Shown piece after piece: positions 38 to 37,392 of a stretch of 37,392 bases of DNA. Below the pieces are notes generated by a model that searched no databases, was not told the origin of the DNA, and saw only the letters and a list, made by a program, of their open reading frames with translations. The stretch spans positions 1 to 37,392 of the forward strand of contig WRKU01000014.1 in assembly GCA_009777935.1 (NCBI GenBank), given 5' to 3'. Origin of the DNA: Coriobacteriia bacterium. GTDB taxonomy: Bacteria; Actinomycetota; Coriobacteriia; WRKU01. The position numbers and the translations under genes were made by a program. Position 1 is the stretch's first letter. Each line of letters begins with the position of its first letter.

Positions 38-2177
38 ATGAACGATAACCACACCCTGCGGGGGGGGGGGGTCTCCACTTTCTGAGGTAGAGCCGCCCTC
101 TACTGATGCCACTACCGGCAGCGTTACCGGCACTGATGTGCCAAAAAGCCGCAAGCGTCAAAACACCACCATAGCCATCATAATTGCCCTACTCCTTCTG
201 CTTCTGGGAGCATTTGCCTGGGGCACTATGCAGCGCGCCATCAATCAGTTTGCAAACCTCAACACACCACGCGCCGTCCTTCATGATGAATTCAGGCGTC
301 TTGATGCGGCCGAGTGGCAAAAGAGCGTATGGGTACAGAACTCAGGCAGCTCACCCTTTATTGCACGCATCTCAGCATCTGAATTCATGCAGTGGATTGA
401 AAGTGAAAACTGGGATAGAGGACGCAATATCATAGAAGGTATTCCTTTTGCTGACCCTATTCCGGCAGCTATAGAGACTACCTTAACTCCCACACTTGAT
501 TCAGGCACGTGGGGCGTAGATGGCACCCTTATCGATACCCAAACAGCGTGGTTTAACGTCACCGCCGACATGTGGTCGATAAGAGGCTTGACCGACCCGA
601 CGAGCCTTGCCAATGCAGCTCCTGCCAGAGGACACGCAGCAGATGGCACTCCTTTCAGCCAATACTGGGAGTGGGACTCAGATCACCTCACCTACGCTGA
701 GTGGACAGCACTTCCTCTCTCACAGCGCTCAAACAAGTGGGTACTCGCTGACGATGGCTTTTTCTACTACACCTCTGTTATCAGACCGGATGCCAATACA
801 CTCCCCCTCATGACAGGAGTCTCTGCTGCTTCAGGTTTTGATCCGCTCAAGCATGCGTTTTACTATGCTATCGATATCCAGATGGAGGTCGTCACCCAAG
901 ATGATGTGGGTGCCATGAAAGACGGCCTTGTACCCAGCAGTGGCACCGACGGCGTCCCTTTGCGTGCAGCATCAACACAGGGTAAGGCGATACTTGACAG
1001 TATTAACTGGACGGCACCCATTATCGGAGGCTTGAGCATCAACGGCATCGAAGGTCTCTCAATAACCGTCTCTCAAGGTGAAGTGATCACGCTTGAAGTA
1101 GATGCCGGAGACGACCCTAATCTGACCTACCTGTGGCAGACCACCAACTCACCTTGGAACGATGCTCCGGGCACTAACGATGAGGTCGAATACACCGTGG
1201 ACACCAACATCTCTGGCACCTACGAGTTTAGGGTGCTGGTCTCAAACTCAGGCAACGCACCGGTCGAAAACGACGGACACACGACGGCAAGCGACACGAT
1301 TACCATCACGGTGTTACTCGACCCACTGGCACCGCAGCCTGCCGTGGGCACAACCCCGGTACGCACCAACATACCGAACTCTAACGATCCCAGCTCACCT
1401 TATCGCGTACTCTTTGACGGCATCCCCTTCTGGCGCATTGCCAGCGCAACGCATGAGGGCAAGACCTACTACCTCATCGTGAGCCAGCACATTTACAGCA
1501 CTGGCACACAGTTTAATCCAGCCACCACCGATGGCAATTTCTGGCTCTCGCGCACTAGTGCACCCGGCACCAAATCCAGCCTGATGACGGCGATGGATAA
1601 CTGGTACAATTCTCGAGGTCCGCAGCTTAAGGAAGCTGCCGTGTTCCCTGCCTTTAGTGGCACGATTAACCAGACTACACCGACAAGCTCGACCTTTGGT
1701 ACTGAAGGCACCACGGGTATGACGACGCAGGCAAGTTGGATAGTGGGCAACAACTGGTTTACGGCTAACAGCAATCGCTACATCAACGGCCAGTCTCGTC
1801 CGAGCGCAATACCGGTAGGCACTGCGAGTGCTAACACTCAGCCTCTCACCGGCGGCGGTATCGTAGCCTTCCCCTTATCTGGTACTGAGATTCTGGCGTA
1901 CTTCCCTGATTCACAGGGAACTACTGACGCAACTCGCGTGTCAGCTATCACGAACGACCAGCGCCTTGGTCGTGCGGTCAGTGACCAGCATTGGTGGTCG
2001 CGCACACGGGGTAACGCCGCCACCGGTGCGGGCGGAGTAAACAACTGGGGCCACGCGCAATTCGGGTTCGGCACCCTCAACAACACCGGCGTCTGGAGCG
2101 CGGGTGCGGCCAGCTTAGTCGAGGTTACCAACACCACCATTTCCCTCCGTCCTGCCCTGTGGGTAGTCGCGCCGTAA
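38..2177 (+). CDS. Phase-variable surface protein, copy A (OFF: 12 G)
   Basis: ATG at 38 follows AGGG and opens a frame reading MNDNHTLRGGG, then stops at TGA 83-85. The long frame, which could nominally start at GTG 138, is open upstream through the whole poly-G tract, has no ribosome binding site at 138, and joins the ATG if the run is 11 G. The ON product would be 712 residues: a hydrophilic 35-residue leader ending in KSRKR, one hydrophobic segment (IAIIIALLLLLLGAFAW), a region with a TasA/camelysin-like pattern (WVQNSGSSPFIARI), an Ig-like domain at about 340-430 (LTYLWQTT, GTYEFRVLVSN), and a C-terminal domain of about 260 residues with the DUF6273 signature (WWSRTRG, LRPALWVVAP). There is no LPxTG-like sorting signal, so membrane anchoring or release is likely. 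The function is unknown; cell-surface exposure is inferred. The gene could be a fixed pseudogene or carry a G-count error, but the conserved design in copies B and C argues for phase variation. Confidence 0.8.
60..71 (+). repeat. Poly-G tract of 12, copy A
   Basis: Twelve consecutive G lie between codon 7 (CTG) plus one C and the sequence TCTCC. Eleven G would put the start codon in frame with the 679-codon open frame; 12 puts it in the frame that ends at TGA 83-85. Long G runs are classical slipped-strand mutation sites in other phase-variable genes. The exact count depends on sequencing accuracy. Confidence 0.9.
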
Positions 2178-2607: not shown

Positions 2608-2652
2608 CACCACGAGCCCCGACGCCACACAACCTCCTCAGTAGACACATCG

Positions 2653-2669
2653 TGCTACACTAGCCAACG
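2653..2669 (+). repeat. 17-bp direct repeat, left copy
   Basis: TGCTACACTAGCCAACG occurs here and again exactly at 3874-3890. It contains TACACT, which resembles a -10 element. A related sequence (TGCTACACTGGAAACG) forms the -10 region of surface copy B. No good -35 is visible here, so this may be a decayed promoter of a lost surface gene. Confidence 0.75.
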
Positions 2670-2690
2670 CAGTCGCAAGGCTGTAGGAAT

Positions 2691-2903
2691 GAGTTACGAT
2701 GCACCAAAGCAGAGCGGTTTTCCGCCGCTAACTGGACCCAGCAGTGGCTGCGGTCTCCGGGCACGTCTGCCACTACGGCGGCTCGCGTGAACAACAATGG
2801 GACCGTGTCGGGCAATACTGCCACCCTTGCGTACGGCGTGCGTCCAGACTTACCCGCAAGACCCTTCCAAGCGAAGTGGACTATGCCAGGGAGTGTATGT
2901 TAA
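2691..2903 (+). pseudogene. Relic of a DUF6273 C-terminal domain
   Basis: In the frame of codon 2730 the translation reads NWTQQWLRSPG, then AARVNNNGTVSG, then YGVRPD, and stops at TAA 2901-2903. The order 'W.LRSPG ... aV...G.v.g ... VRPaL' is the C-terminal signature of DUF6273 domains, as in copies A (WWSRTRG ... LRPALW) and B (WWSRSRS ... YVNSSGSV ... LRPALW). No start codon with a ribosome binding site, signal segment or N-terminal domain precedes it, and the terminal VRPAL motif has become VRPDL followed by unrelated residues. It is best read as the remnant of another family member. The left boundary is approximate. It could instead be a silent donor of C-terminal sequence, for which there is no direct evidence. 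Confidence 0.7.
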
Positions 2904-3053
2904 GCAGCATACAGAGAGCAGGTAAGGGAACTCATATCCTTTCGTGTAGTGCCACCTTATATGGCGCCGGCGAAAAAGGGAAACGCACAGGCTCGGGTGG
3001 TCGCTACCCGCATCGCTCGGGCCTTTGCACAAGAGCCGGCAAGACCCTGTACA
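2904..3053. other. Non-coding stretch
   Basis: Between the domain relic and the toxin-antitoxin promoter there is no open frame with a plausible start, no tRNA-like fold and no clear terminator. It may be further decayed sequence of the lost surface gene. Confidence 0.5.
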
Positions 3054-3087: not shown

Positions 3088-3106
3088 CATAGTGAAGGGA
3101 GCTCTC

Positions 3107-3442
3107 ATGAGCACTAACTCGGCGATGTTATCAACAAAAGTTTCGCCTGAAATCCGTGAACGATTCGAAGAGCTTGCCGGCTCATATGGAACCTCCCCGG
3201 CAGCCGCTTTGCGCATGTTGACGTATGCCTTTGTCAAGGCTGAAGGGTTTCCTTATGCGATGAGTGGCCAAAAGGAGACTATAAGGGAGACGTCTGTTGT
3301 GCCGCTGGAAGCGAAAACCTTTTTACCTGCGCTTGAAAAAATGCAAGAATCTATGACAGGCCAAGCAGAAAAGGCAGGACTCGTAGGCGATGAAGACGTG
3401 ATGGCACTTGTGCGAGAGGTCCGCTACAAGGAGACTGCATAG
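3107..3442 (+). CDS. Putative antitoxin, RelB/DinJ-like
   Basis: A 111-residue protein from ATG 3107, preceded by AAGGGAG at 3095-3101; a GTG at 3092 lies before that ribosome binding site and is rejected. The N-terminus (MLSTKVSPEIRERFEELAGSYG, followed by SPAAALRMLTYAFV) has the strand plus two-helix pattern of RelB/DinJ-type ribbon-helix-helix antitoxins. The rest, about 60-111, is probably the flexible toxin-binding tail. Its stop codon overlaps the toxin start (TAGTG), which fixes the pairing. Expected role: bind the PIN toxin and repress the operon at the palindrome over the -10. The family assignment rests on the N-terminal pattern only. Confidence 0.7.
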   Translation: MSTNSAMLSTKVSPEIRERFEELAGSYGTSPAAALRMLTYAFVKAEGFPYAMSGQKETIRETSVVPLEAKTFLPALEKMQESMTGQAEKAGLVGDEDVMALVREVRYKETA

Positions 3443-3858
3443 TGCGCTGCCTCATAGACACCAATGTTTTGGTATCGGCTTTTATGTGGCCGCAAAGCAT
3501 TCCTGCAGAGGCGGTTAAGATTGCGAGTACGGCACCTTTTTCTGCTTATGTTAGTCCATATTCTCTGGCAGAACTTAGGGAAGTTATTGTGCGTAAATGG
3601 CCTGAGAACTTGAGCGATCTTGATGTCTTTATAGAAAGTATCCTGCTTCATATGGTGGTAACCACTCAAACCATCGATTACCTTACCGAACAGATGCCTT
3701 TGCGAGATGTGAACGATATGCCTATTCTGGCAGATGCATTGGGCGAAGGTGTCGATATCATTATTTCAGGGGATAAGGATTTCATCGAGGCAGGACTCTC
3801 TAAGCCGCAGGTTTTGACACCGGCTGAGTTTATCAAGCAGCATTTTTCAAATCCATAG
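3442..3858 (+). CDS. PIN-domain ribonuclease toxin
   Basis: A 138-residue PIN-domain protein of the 'putative toxin component, PIN family' type. Acidic residues expected to bind metal are visible: Asp6 in LIDTNVLVSAF, Glu44 in SLAELREV, Asp92 in RDVNDMPILADAL, and Asp111/Asp113 in IISGDKDF. The start is GTG 3442, which shares a base with the antitoxin stop TAG, indicating translational coupling. PIN toxins are Mg-dependent RNases whose activity is held in check by the cognate antitoxin. The module sits between two surface-protein copies and inside 17-bp direct repeats (2653 and 3874), so it may stabilise this variable region; that is inference. Confidence 0.85.
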   Translation: MRCLIDTNVLVSAFMWPQSIPAEAVKIASTAPFSAYVSPYSLAELREVIVRKWPENLSDLDVFIESILLHMVVTTQTIDYLTEQMPLRDVNDMPILADALGEGVDIIISGDKDFIEAGLSKPQVLTPAEFIKQHFSNP

Positions 3859-3998: not shown

Positions 3999-4094
3999 TT
4001 GCGAGGAGCTAGCAAAATTTGCTACACTGGAAACGATAGTTACAAGCTAATCAATATAACGAGACATGCGTTTTTTGCATGAAATGAGGGCAAA
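3999..4094 (+). promoter_or_regulatory. Promoter and leader of surface copy B
   Basis: TTGCGA (3999-4004), 18 bases, TACACT (4023-4028). The block from here to the start codon is strongly conserved in copy C (37246-37342), including ACTGGAAACGATAGTTAC just after the -10. A small hairpin, CATGC (4065-4069) with GCATG (4077-4081) around a GTTTTTT loop, precedes GAGGG, the ribosome binding site of ATG 4095. The leader is about 60 nt. Strong conservation in a non-coding stretch suggests shared expression control of the family. Confidence 0.7.
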
Positions 4095-6217
4095 ATGAGC
4101 ACAACTGAGAAAACCACACGGGGGGGGGGTCCCTACTTTCTGAGGTAGCGACTTCTGCTACCGACACCGACGCGCTTCGCAGTCGCAAGCGTCAAAACAC
4201 CACTATAGCCATCATAATCGCACTACTCTTGCTCCTTTTGGGAGCTTTTGCGTGGGGTACGATGCAGCGTGCCATCAATCAGTTTGCGAGCCTGAACACA
4301 CCACGCGCAGTACTTCACGACGAATTCAGACGTCTTGATGCGACTGAGTGGCAAAAGAGAGTATGGGTACAAAACTCAGGCAACTCACCCTTTATCGCAC
4401 GCATATCCGCATCTGAGTTTATGCAATGGATAGAAGCCGAAGACTGGAGTCGTGGTAGAAACATCATAGAGGGTATTCCCTTTGCGAGTCCTATCCCTGA
4501 AGCTATCGAGACGACACTTACTCCTACGCTTGATTCAGACACCTGGGGAGCCGATGGTACTCTTATTGATACGCAAACGGCGTGGTTTGATGTCACCGCC
4601 GACATGTGGTCTATCAGAGGCCTTACTGATGCGACCAGCCTTACCCAAGCAGCTCCTGCCCGAGGACACGCAGCTGATGGTACTCCTTTCAGCGAGTACT
4701 GGGACTGGGACTCAGATCACCTGACCTACACCGAATGGACCGCACTACCTCTTGCGCAGCGCTCAAACAAGTGGGTGTTAGCTGATGATGGCTTTTTCTA
4801 CTACACCTCTGTCATCAGACCTGACAGCAATACACTCCCCTTGATGACCGGCGTGAGCGCTGCCACCGGCTTCGATCCGCTTAAGCACGCTTTTTACTAT
4901 GCCATCGATATCCAGATGGAAGTGGTTACCCAAGATGATGTCAGCGCTATGAAAGACGGCCTTGTTCCCAGCAGTGGCACTGACGGTGTCCCTTTGCGCA
5001 CAGCATCAACGCAGGGTAAGGCGATACTTGATAGCATCACATGGAATACCCCCATCATTGGAGGACTCAATATCAATGGTGTCGAAGGTCTTGAGATAGC
5101 TGTGGTGCCAGGTACGCCAGTCACCCTTGAAGTCGATGCTGGTGGTGACCCTGATCTCACCTACCTGTGGCAGACCACCAACTCTCCATGGAATGACGCT
5201 CCGGGTACTAACGACGAAACAGAATACACGGTAGATACCAACATAGTAGGCACCTTCGAGTTTAGAGTGCTTGTCTCTAACAGTGGCAATACACCCGCAG
5301 AAGACGACGGACACACGACCGTCTCAGATACTATCACTGTAGAAGTAGAGCCATCACCCGTACCCACGCCTGTCACCCCGACGCGCCGTGACTTTGGTCC
5401 AGTTCAGTTTTTTAGAATCGCTGAGCAGACGATTGATGGTGTCACTTATGACTTGTTAGTAACACGCTATGTATACGGCTCCAACCCGACGGCAGCCTGG
5501 GCTTATGTGCGGTTCAATGAAACGAGTCAGGGTAATTTCTGGCTTACCAACGCAGACGGTACCGCCAAATCTACCGTTATTGCTGGCATGGACAGCTGGT
5601 ACAACGGTCTTACGGGAGCTGGCCTTGATTCAGGCACCAACAATCTTAAGTCTCTTGCCGTACAGGCCGACTTCACCGGCAGCAATGCAGGTGCTGGTAG
5701 CACACGCACCTTTGGTACCGAAGGCTTGACGGGTCATCCCACTGTGACAGCACTTGCAGGCACCACGAACGCTGATGTGGCCGCAAACATTGCATTCATG
5801 CAAGATCCGGAAAACTATCCTGAGGCAATCTCGACGCCCTCGAGCAGAGCAGCAGCAAATCCCACTTCATCATCGCCGAGCACGGGTCAAGGTGTTGTCG
5901 CCTTCCCGCTCTCAGGCAAAGAGATACTGAGTTACTTTCCTAACATTGGGACAAATACGTATACGGGAAACGACATACTAGCACCACGAGCGTACGGCGT
6001 TGCTGCTAATCACGCAGGGTCGACGACAGCCCGCAGTTGGTGGTCCCGCTCGCGTAGTAACGAGGCTAATCGGGCGGGTTACGTGAACAGCAGCGGTAGT
6101 GTGCTCAGCTCTTGGGGTCGCTTGAACTACACTGGTGCGTGGGGTGCTCCCGCTGGCGGTACGATTACTGACAACGCTTACGCGCTTCGCCCCGCTCTTT
6201 GGGTGGTCGCGCCGTAA
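4095..6217 (+). CDS. Phase-variable surface protein, copy B (OFF: 10 G)
   Basis: ATG 4095 opens MSTTEKTTRGGG and, with 10 G, stops at TAG 4146-4148. The long frame is open from before the tract to 6217 and joins the ATG at 11 G, giving 707 residues. The only start candidate inside the long frame, TTG 4229, lies within the hydrophobic segment and would destroy it. Layout: leader ending RSRKR, hydrophobic segment (IAIIIALLLLLLGAFAW), TasA/camelysin-like region, Ig-like domain, and a C-terminal DUF6273-type domain from about 5370 on (WWSRSRS, YVNSSGSV, LRPALWVVAP). Up to about 5335 most residues match copy A; beyond that the two diverge, although the last residues are again identical. There is no sorting signal. 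The function is unknown; a variable surface antigen or binding protein is an inference. Confidence 0.8.
4120..4129 (+). repeat. Poly-G tract of 10, copy B
   Basis: Ten G between ACAC and TCCCTAC. Eleven G would connect the ATG at 4095 with the downstream frame. The tract sits at the same codon position relative to the downstream sequence (GGG, Ser, Pro/Leu, Leu, Ser, Glu, Val) as in copy A, although the codons upstream of it differ. Confidence 0.9.
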
Positions 6218-37245: not shown

Positions 37246-37342
37246 TTGCCGAGGGCTGGCGAAATTTGGTAGACTGGAAACGATAGTTACTAAGTAGTCA
37301 ACACGACGGACTATGCGTTTTTTGCATGAAATGAGGGCACAC
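37246..37342 (+). promoter_or_regulatory. Promoter and leader of surface copy C
   Basis: TTGCCG (37246-37251), 18 bases, TAGACT (37270-37275), then a leader nearly identical to that of copy B, including ACTGGAAACGATAGTTAC and the hairpin TATGC (37312-37316) / GCATG (37324-37328) with a GTTTTTT loop. The -35 begins four bases after the purH stop. Confidence 0.65.
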
Positions 37343-37392
37343 ATGAACGATAACCACACCCTGCGGGGGGGGGGGGGCTCCACTTTTTGGGT
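37343..37392 (+). CDS. Phase-variable surface protein, copy C (5' end only, 13 G)
   Basis: ATG 37343 opens the same first codons as copy A (MNDNHTLR), preceded by the same GAAATGAGGG site. The G run is 13. Comparing the sequence after the run with copy A (CTCCACTTT in both), the frame equivalent to the long frame of copy A would be reached with 12 G, so this copy also appears one G away from ON. The gene leaves the window 15 bases after the tract and its C-terminal domain is unseen. The last bases (TTTTTGGGT) differ from the CTGAGGTAG of copies A and B; this may be real or poor sequence at a contig end. Confidence 0.6.
   Translation, partial: MNDNHTLRGGGGSTFW
37365..37377 (+). repeat. Poly-G tract of 13, copy C
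   Basis: Thirteen G between CTGC and CTCCACTT. The tract lies at the same place after the start codon as in copy A, and the 43 bases before it, from GAAATGAGGG on, are identical in the two copies. Confidence 0.85.

Follow-up and report, generated by a model that had tools for sequence, protein, structure and literature searches.

Long G runs at the starts of surface genes are familiar from the poly-G/C contingency loci of Campylobacter, Neisseria, and Helicobacter (e.g., PMC6321876 and PMC2823697). Such loci are ON at one length class of the tract, occur many times per genome, and have tracts both inside and upstream of genes. Surface proteins are also the targets of the multi-target diversity-generating retroelement (DGR) of Treponema denticola, in which one reverse transcriptase (RT) and one template repeat (TR) serve 2 to 7 dispersed TvpA-like targets, each with a C-terminal variable region (VR) (PMC4891356). 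In one survey, several VRs were found in 28.6% of DGRs and several TRs in some (PMC6642488). The DGR of Bordetella phage BPP-1 has an Avd-like neighbor, and the SipW-dependent matrix proteins (TIGR04090) have an anchor and an N-domain similar to those of the proteins described here. Phase variation controls the production of a surface protein, and a DGR shapes its tip.

The locus that we analyzed seems to bring both together. The window, i.e., the whole stretch of 37,392 nucleotides, is the entire contig 14 of a Coriobacteriia (Actinomycetota) MAG of 1,106,534 bases in 21 contigs that is 86% complete. The seryl-tRNA synthetase of this genome is 62 to 78% identical to those of Coriobacteriia MAGs and isolates, including Atopobium and Olsenella records, and the relatives retrieved belong to that class as well. 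The features shared with contingency loci are the long G run at the gene start, the single ON class, the number of loci, and the position of tracts inside and upstream of genes. Unlike those loci, the tracts here belong to one expanded, anchored family with hypervariable ends. As in T. denticola, there is one RT with dispersed surface-protein targets and C-terminal VRs; unlike that system, there are about 20 genes, poly-G switches at their starts, and 12 template-like RNA cassettes at a distance from the RT rather than one adjoining TR. The RT has an Avd-like neighbor as in BPP-1, but the system is chromosomal and has many targets, and the assembly shows no TR adjacent to the RT. Our literature search, which took in few subscription journals, found no paper describing a DGR combined with phase variation. 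The two mechanisms, poly-G switching and a DGR with several targets, are individually known; as far as we searched, no description exists of one family that is subject to both.

Copy B lies on the plus strand. Its ATG (4095-4097) opens the leader MSTTEKTTR (4095..4119), and a GAGGG at 4086-4090, just 5′ of the ATG on the same strand, is by eye a candidate ribosome-binding site; a promoter scan 5′ of copy B passed no candidate. The leader runs into a plus-strand tract of 10 G (4120..4129) flanked by C4119 and T4130. With the assembled 10 G, the translation is MSTTEKTTRGGGPYFLR, closed by the TAG at 4146..4148 (plus strand). In the +1 frame, reached with 11 G (8 or 14 being equivalent), 695 codons are open, with the coding frame 3′ of the tract spanning 4130..6217 on the plus strand and the stop ending at 6217. 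The first-pass annotation had called copy B OFF at 10 G and ON at 11 G, and direct reading and frame translation confirmed this. Its count of 662 remaining codons starts from the first internal TTG and is replaced here by 695.

Copy A (38..2177, plus strand) has its ATG at 38, the leader MNDNHTL, a 12-G tract at 60-71, a frame at 72-2174, and a stop at 2175-2177. It is likewise ON at 11 G, as had been claimed, and the assembled 12 G is one too many, leaving it OFF. That the leaders of A and B differ also held. The claim that both tract position and ON length agree was right for the ON length only, as the A of the ATG precedes the first G of the tract by 25 nt in copy B and by 22 nt in copy A. 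The ON lengths agree because these distances, one codon apart, are equal modulo 3. A third copy start (37341..37392, plus strand; ATG 37343, leader MNDNHTL) has a 13-G tract at 37365-37377 and is cut by the contig end. These three G runs (60-71, 4120-4129, and 37365-37377), at the same place in one gene family to within that codon, are the only homopolymers of at least 8 in the window. Overlapping 8-G matches numbered 14, compared to 0.45 expected from shuffles; together, the two results imply that the tracts are not due to chance. All G counts are those of a short-read MAG consensus in which tracts at contig ends are noisy, so a count is reliable to the single base only where reads back it.

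Searched against its own genome, copy B gave 36 matches, and the genome holds 42 G runs of at least 8. At least 17 assembled paralogues have a long frame behind a tract of 10 to 15 G at the equivalent place. A further 7 leader-plus-tract starts lie at contig ends, and some may be the other halves of the 17 genes. The switch design had been reported for two paralogues; the design stood, and the number did not, with 17 assembled genes sharing the tract, the ON class, and quick stops. This rules out a two-copy curiosity. There are three kinds of leader: MNDNHTL/MNDNHAM/MSDNHTL, MSTTEKTT/MSTIEKTT, and, at contig ends, MAVDKTL. All assembled genes with a readable leader are open at 8, 11, or 14 G; in the copy at C8:53119, a T changed to G shifts this to 9, 12, or 15, which is the same register. 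In 17 of 17 genes, the two remaining frames reach a stop after 5 and 3 codons. Two unrelated types of sequence follow the tracts (tctccactttctgaggtag and ccatcgcaaaatagcgtag), and the quick stops occur in both, which may amount to a fail-safe OFF state. Tract lengths vary among copies (10, 11, 12, and 13). Among 12 internal tracts with enough upstream sequence, 10 were at ON+1, one was ON (C18:2417), and one, copy B, was at ON−1. The 10 at ON+1 exceed the random-frame expectation, possibly through assembly bias, a preferred length, or near-exclusive expression. Relatives of copy B were absent from the named genome contigs and viral contigs searched, and the leader DNA had no match in the viral contigs searched.

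Tracts also occur outside coding sequence. At least 7 G runs share the flank cagccctttt...gc...ct, followed by G9-13 and then ...TATACT. Two or three of these noncoding tracts precede a coding tract by about 130 to 160 bp (C9:48280 and C9:48408, C9:50703 and C9:50867, and C4:230 and C4:69, with the noncoding tract given first). Of 5 related surface genes in a different family of the same order (G008), 3 (L096, L098, and L099) have 11 to 12 G about 300 bp 5′ of the start. Such upstream tracts may tune transcription.

Behind the coding tracts, the frames are conserved as protein. Over the 282 codons of the N-domain, A and B gave a dN of 0.060, a dS of 0.82, and a dN/dS of 0.07 (Nei-Gojobori); over all 664 aligned codons behind the tract, dN/dS was 0.19. 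This comparison of synonymous and nonsynonymous change showed purifying selection and not neutral erosion, in agreement with the earlier view that decay hardly explains the open frames. Most copies had an N-domain dN/dS versus B of 0.04 to 0.09 at a dS of about 1, and the most divergent computable ones had 0.17 and 0.24. If A and B were dead genes with a frameshift, one would expect them to be out of frame in the assembly, as they and most other copies are. The low ratios of most pairs, the lack of any stop across 600 to 850 codons in 17 genes, and a frame error that is always identical and always at the tract speak against this, and we consider such pseudogene decay scarcely credible. For the family as a whole, the frames are under strong purifying selection, and decay is refuted. 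The repeat is kept as well. Of the glycine codons behind the tracts, 6.1% are GGG, and no other G run there is longer than 5, yet every tract is unbroken G. Tracts that are pure G at a dS of about 1 while GGG is rare elsewhere imply that the DNA repeat itself is kept. Together with the selection on the frames, this implies that protein and DNA repeat are both maintained.

We consider a slipped-strand phase-variation switch to be the best explanation for the tract and, judged from the sequence, hold it with high confidence. As in contingency genes, copy B has a long homopolymer inside the 5′ end of its frame, where length changes other than multiples of 3 switch the frame, and, behind it, a frame under protein selection. 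An assembly artefact, with wrong counts and real tracts that are in frame, draws on the facts that many contigs break at tracts, with noisy ends, and that short reads miscount G runs. A miscount, however, alters the state of a gene and not the existence of a 10- to 13-G tract at one site in 17 genes, and a tract that is always in frame would need no pure GGG; we regard this explanation as very improbable. Neither is it probable, if a little less remote, that RNA polymerase or the ribosome slips on the G run to give a fixed full-length share at every tract length with no heritable switch. Long homopolymers are slippery (PMC3711429), and one length, 12 G, is common to 10 of the 12 internal tracts. 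However, known transcriptional slippage is mostly on A or T runs (PMC3711429), tract lengths differ among copies, at C18:2417 an internal copy stands exactly in frame, and G tracts also lie 5′ of coding regions, where recoding would be senseless. The tract could also serve mainly as a site of recombination through which paralogues exchange leaders and promoters. In copy B, and likewise in C4:15143, an MSTTEKTT leader is followed by a SPLSEV-type tail that in most other copies stands behind MNDNHTL. At C4:26820 (minus strand, L067), the 5′ flank of an upstream tract runs straight into the 3′ flank typical of coding tracts, and there is no start codon. The latter joint could be either poly-G recombination or a chimera. 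Since this reading leaves the quick stops in both other frames and the shared ON class unexplained, we find it unlikely as the chief role, and recombination at the tract may act beside switching.

The switched protein is probably displayed on the cell surface. Copy B has a short tail, one transmembrane segment (RKRQNTTIAIIIALLLLLLGAFAW), a conserved N-domain, an Ig/PKD-like linker, and a C-terminal domain. The N-domain weakly resembles the SipW-dependent matrix proteins of the BsaA family (TIGR04090; E 7e-7) at 29.1 bits, and as the cut-off is 60, we did not assign the family to TIGR04090. A SipW-type signal peptidase is encoded in the genome (TIGR02228, above cut-off). Based on the transmembrane segment, the SipW-like N-domain similarity, and this peptidase, the switched proteins are likely N-terminally anchored, exported, and surface displayed. 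The C-terminal domain of copy B scored 15.2 bits against DUF6273 (PF19789), below the Pfam gathering cut-off of 23.5, and weak DUF6273 matches were seen in 5 of 21 family members (best E 2e-4). A PDB profile search with 21 C-terminal domains returned no match. AlphaFold2 on the C-terminal domain, examined for the C-type-lectin fold of DGR variable domains with an input of 2 sequences, gave a pLDDT of 30.

It is at the C terminus that the family is hypervariable. Copy B ends in a type-1 VR-like stretch, about WWSRSRS...LRPALWVVAP, at 6044..6214 on the plus strand (limits approximate). Ten type-1 ends align gap-free on the framework WWSRSRG..AT.AG.V...G.V.GSWG......W..P.G...T....LRPALW. Their variable codons are NNC or NNT, with positions 1 and 2 hypervariable and the third base fixed. 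Hypervariable columns, defined as having three or more bases, fell at codon positions 1/2/3 in numbers of 22/16/11 in the VR versus 23/14/113 in the N-domain (Fisher p 1e-10). Relative to copy B, the VRs often had a dS of 0.35 to 0.65, compared to about 1 for the N-domain, and close copies had a dN/dS of 0.6 to 1.55. The VRs were recently homogenized and then diversified at amino acid positions. The pattern, read among the VRs and not against a TR, is consistent with that expected from adenine-directed DGR mutagenesis of AAC/AAT codons. As a mutational signature, it makes DGR-type diversification of the switched proteins very likely. A consensus DNA search of the 86%-complete assembly for a type-1 TR, the type of the copy B VR, returned only VRs and partly similar cassettes. 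The gene at C18:16830 (L086) has a variable end without RPALWV, and its frame departs after ...NTGLGLLL; this copy may be broken there.

The sole RT of the genome (C10:2395-3546, minus strand) has the motifs LGNQSSQ and YMDD. It matched phrog_1423 with an E of 2.6e-88, and its best solved-structure relative was 8ub7 (E 3.8e-23; listed as “Reverse transcriptase,” 328 aa), which we take to be the BPP-1 enzyme. The (I/V/L)GxxxSQ motif is a mark of DGR RTs (PMC3521204). Directly upstream, and forming with the RT the unit C10:2395-4094 (L183, minus strand), is a gene that matched phrog_3206, “Avd protein of DGR” (E 1.1e-11), and, below cut-off, NF033474 (E 0.0055). No TR adjoins the RT and Avd genes in the assembly.

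Structured noncoding cassettes are candidate templates. The one between copies A and B (2650..2985, plus strand) has a promoter-like TGCTACACTAG, a template-like core at about 2719-2845, and a structured 3′ part at 2845-2980. The genome has 12 such cassettes, all intergenic and often just 3′ of a target gene and codirectional with it. Their 5′ side is conserved (TGYTACACTAG), and the core ends in GTGCGTCCAG followed by ACTTACCC; at the matching point, two type-2 genes have GTGCGTCCAG followed by CCTTGTGGG or are cut. The difference between ACTTACCC and CCTTGTGGG resembles IMH*/IMH of DGRs. In the cassette RNA fold, 97% of cells were paired, and two-sided changes occurred in 10 pairs, compared to 5.2 when shuffled and at most 5 when slid. 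An RNA model of the 3′ part (R1) matched 1 of 197 genomes, namely, the source genome, and Rfam gave nothing meaningful at the cassette. The core has a coding-like framework in which 14 of 16 hypervariable columns fall at codon positions 1 and 2; in the 110-base 3′ flank, there are 2 such columns. This codon phasing implies that the noncoding cores themselves bear the DGR pattern. The cassettes match C-terminal ends of the second type (C10:1-138 and C6:1-200), not the copy B type. Between type-2 cassettes and the two type-2 VRs, mismatches favored cassette adenines (best pairs p 2e-4), with 5 to 20% mismatches elsewhere. On this evidence, we lean toward the cassettes being template RNAs or relatives thereof, and we lean equally toward an active DGR element with the cassettes as its templates.

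We propose that, in living cells, slipped-strand mispairing on poly-G during replication would change the tract length. At 11 G (or 8 or 14), the short leader would be joined to a 695-codon surface protein, and at other lengths translation would end within 3 to 5 codons; the resulting ON and OFF states would be heritable. The C-terminal end of the switched protein would in turn be varied, as the likely cause, by the single DGR-type RT/Avd of the genome via structured template RNAs. Variation in the family would then act on two levels, the choice of members that are expressed and the binding surface that each presents. In this way, the cell seems capable of altering both its set of displayed proteins and their appearance. 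The fullest form of this model, a two-layer system in which about 20 surface genes, each with its own poly-G switch, share a DGR with a single RT/Avd that uses in trans a template library of about 12 dispersed, stand-alone structured RNA genes, each of them already diversified at about 9 codons, is tentative, and we put it slightly short of an even chance. If true, the bacterium would search binding space by mutation with most candidates hidden, akin to an immune repertoire, and a genome of about 1.1 Mb would give some 50 kb to diversification. It also raises the testable question of whether RNA genes scattered over the genome could act in trans for a single DGR RT.

RTs of other Coriobacteriia (L225-L230) were considered as members of the same system and rejected, as they look like phage DGRs with the TR in cis. 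Among these, the phage-type DGR loci L226-L229 have G runs of 9 to 10 in or near RT or accessory genes, which may be due to chance. Finally, between the cassette and copy B, at window positions 3092-3858, there is a small gene pair encoding a RelB-like protein (weak match) and a PIN-domain protein, possibly a toxin-antitoxin pair.
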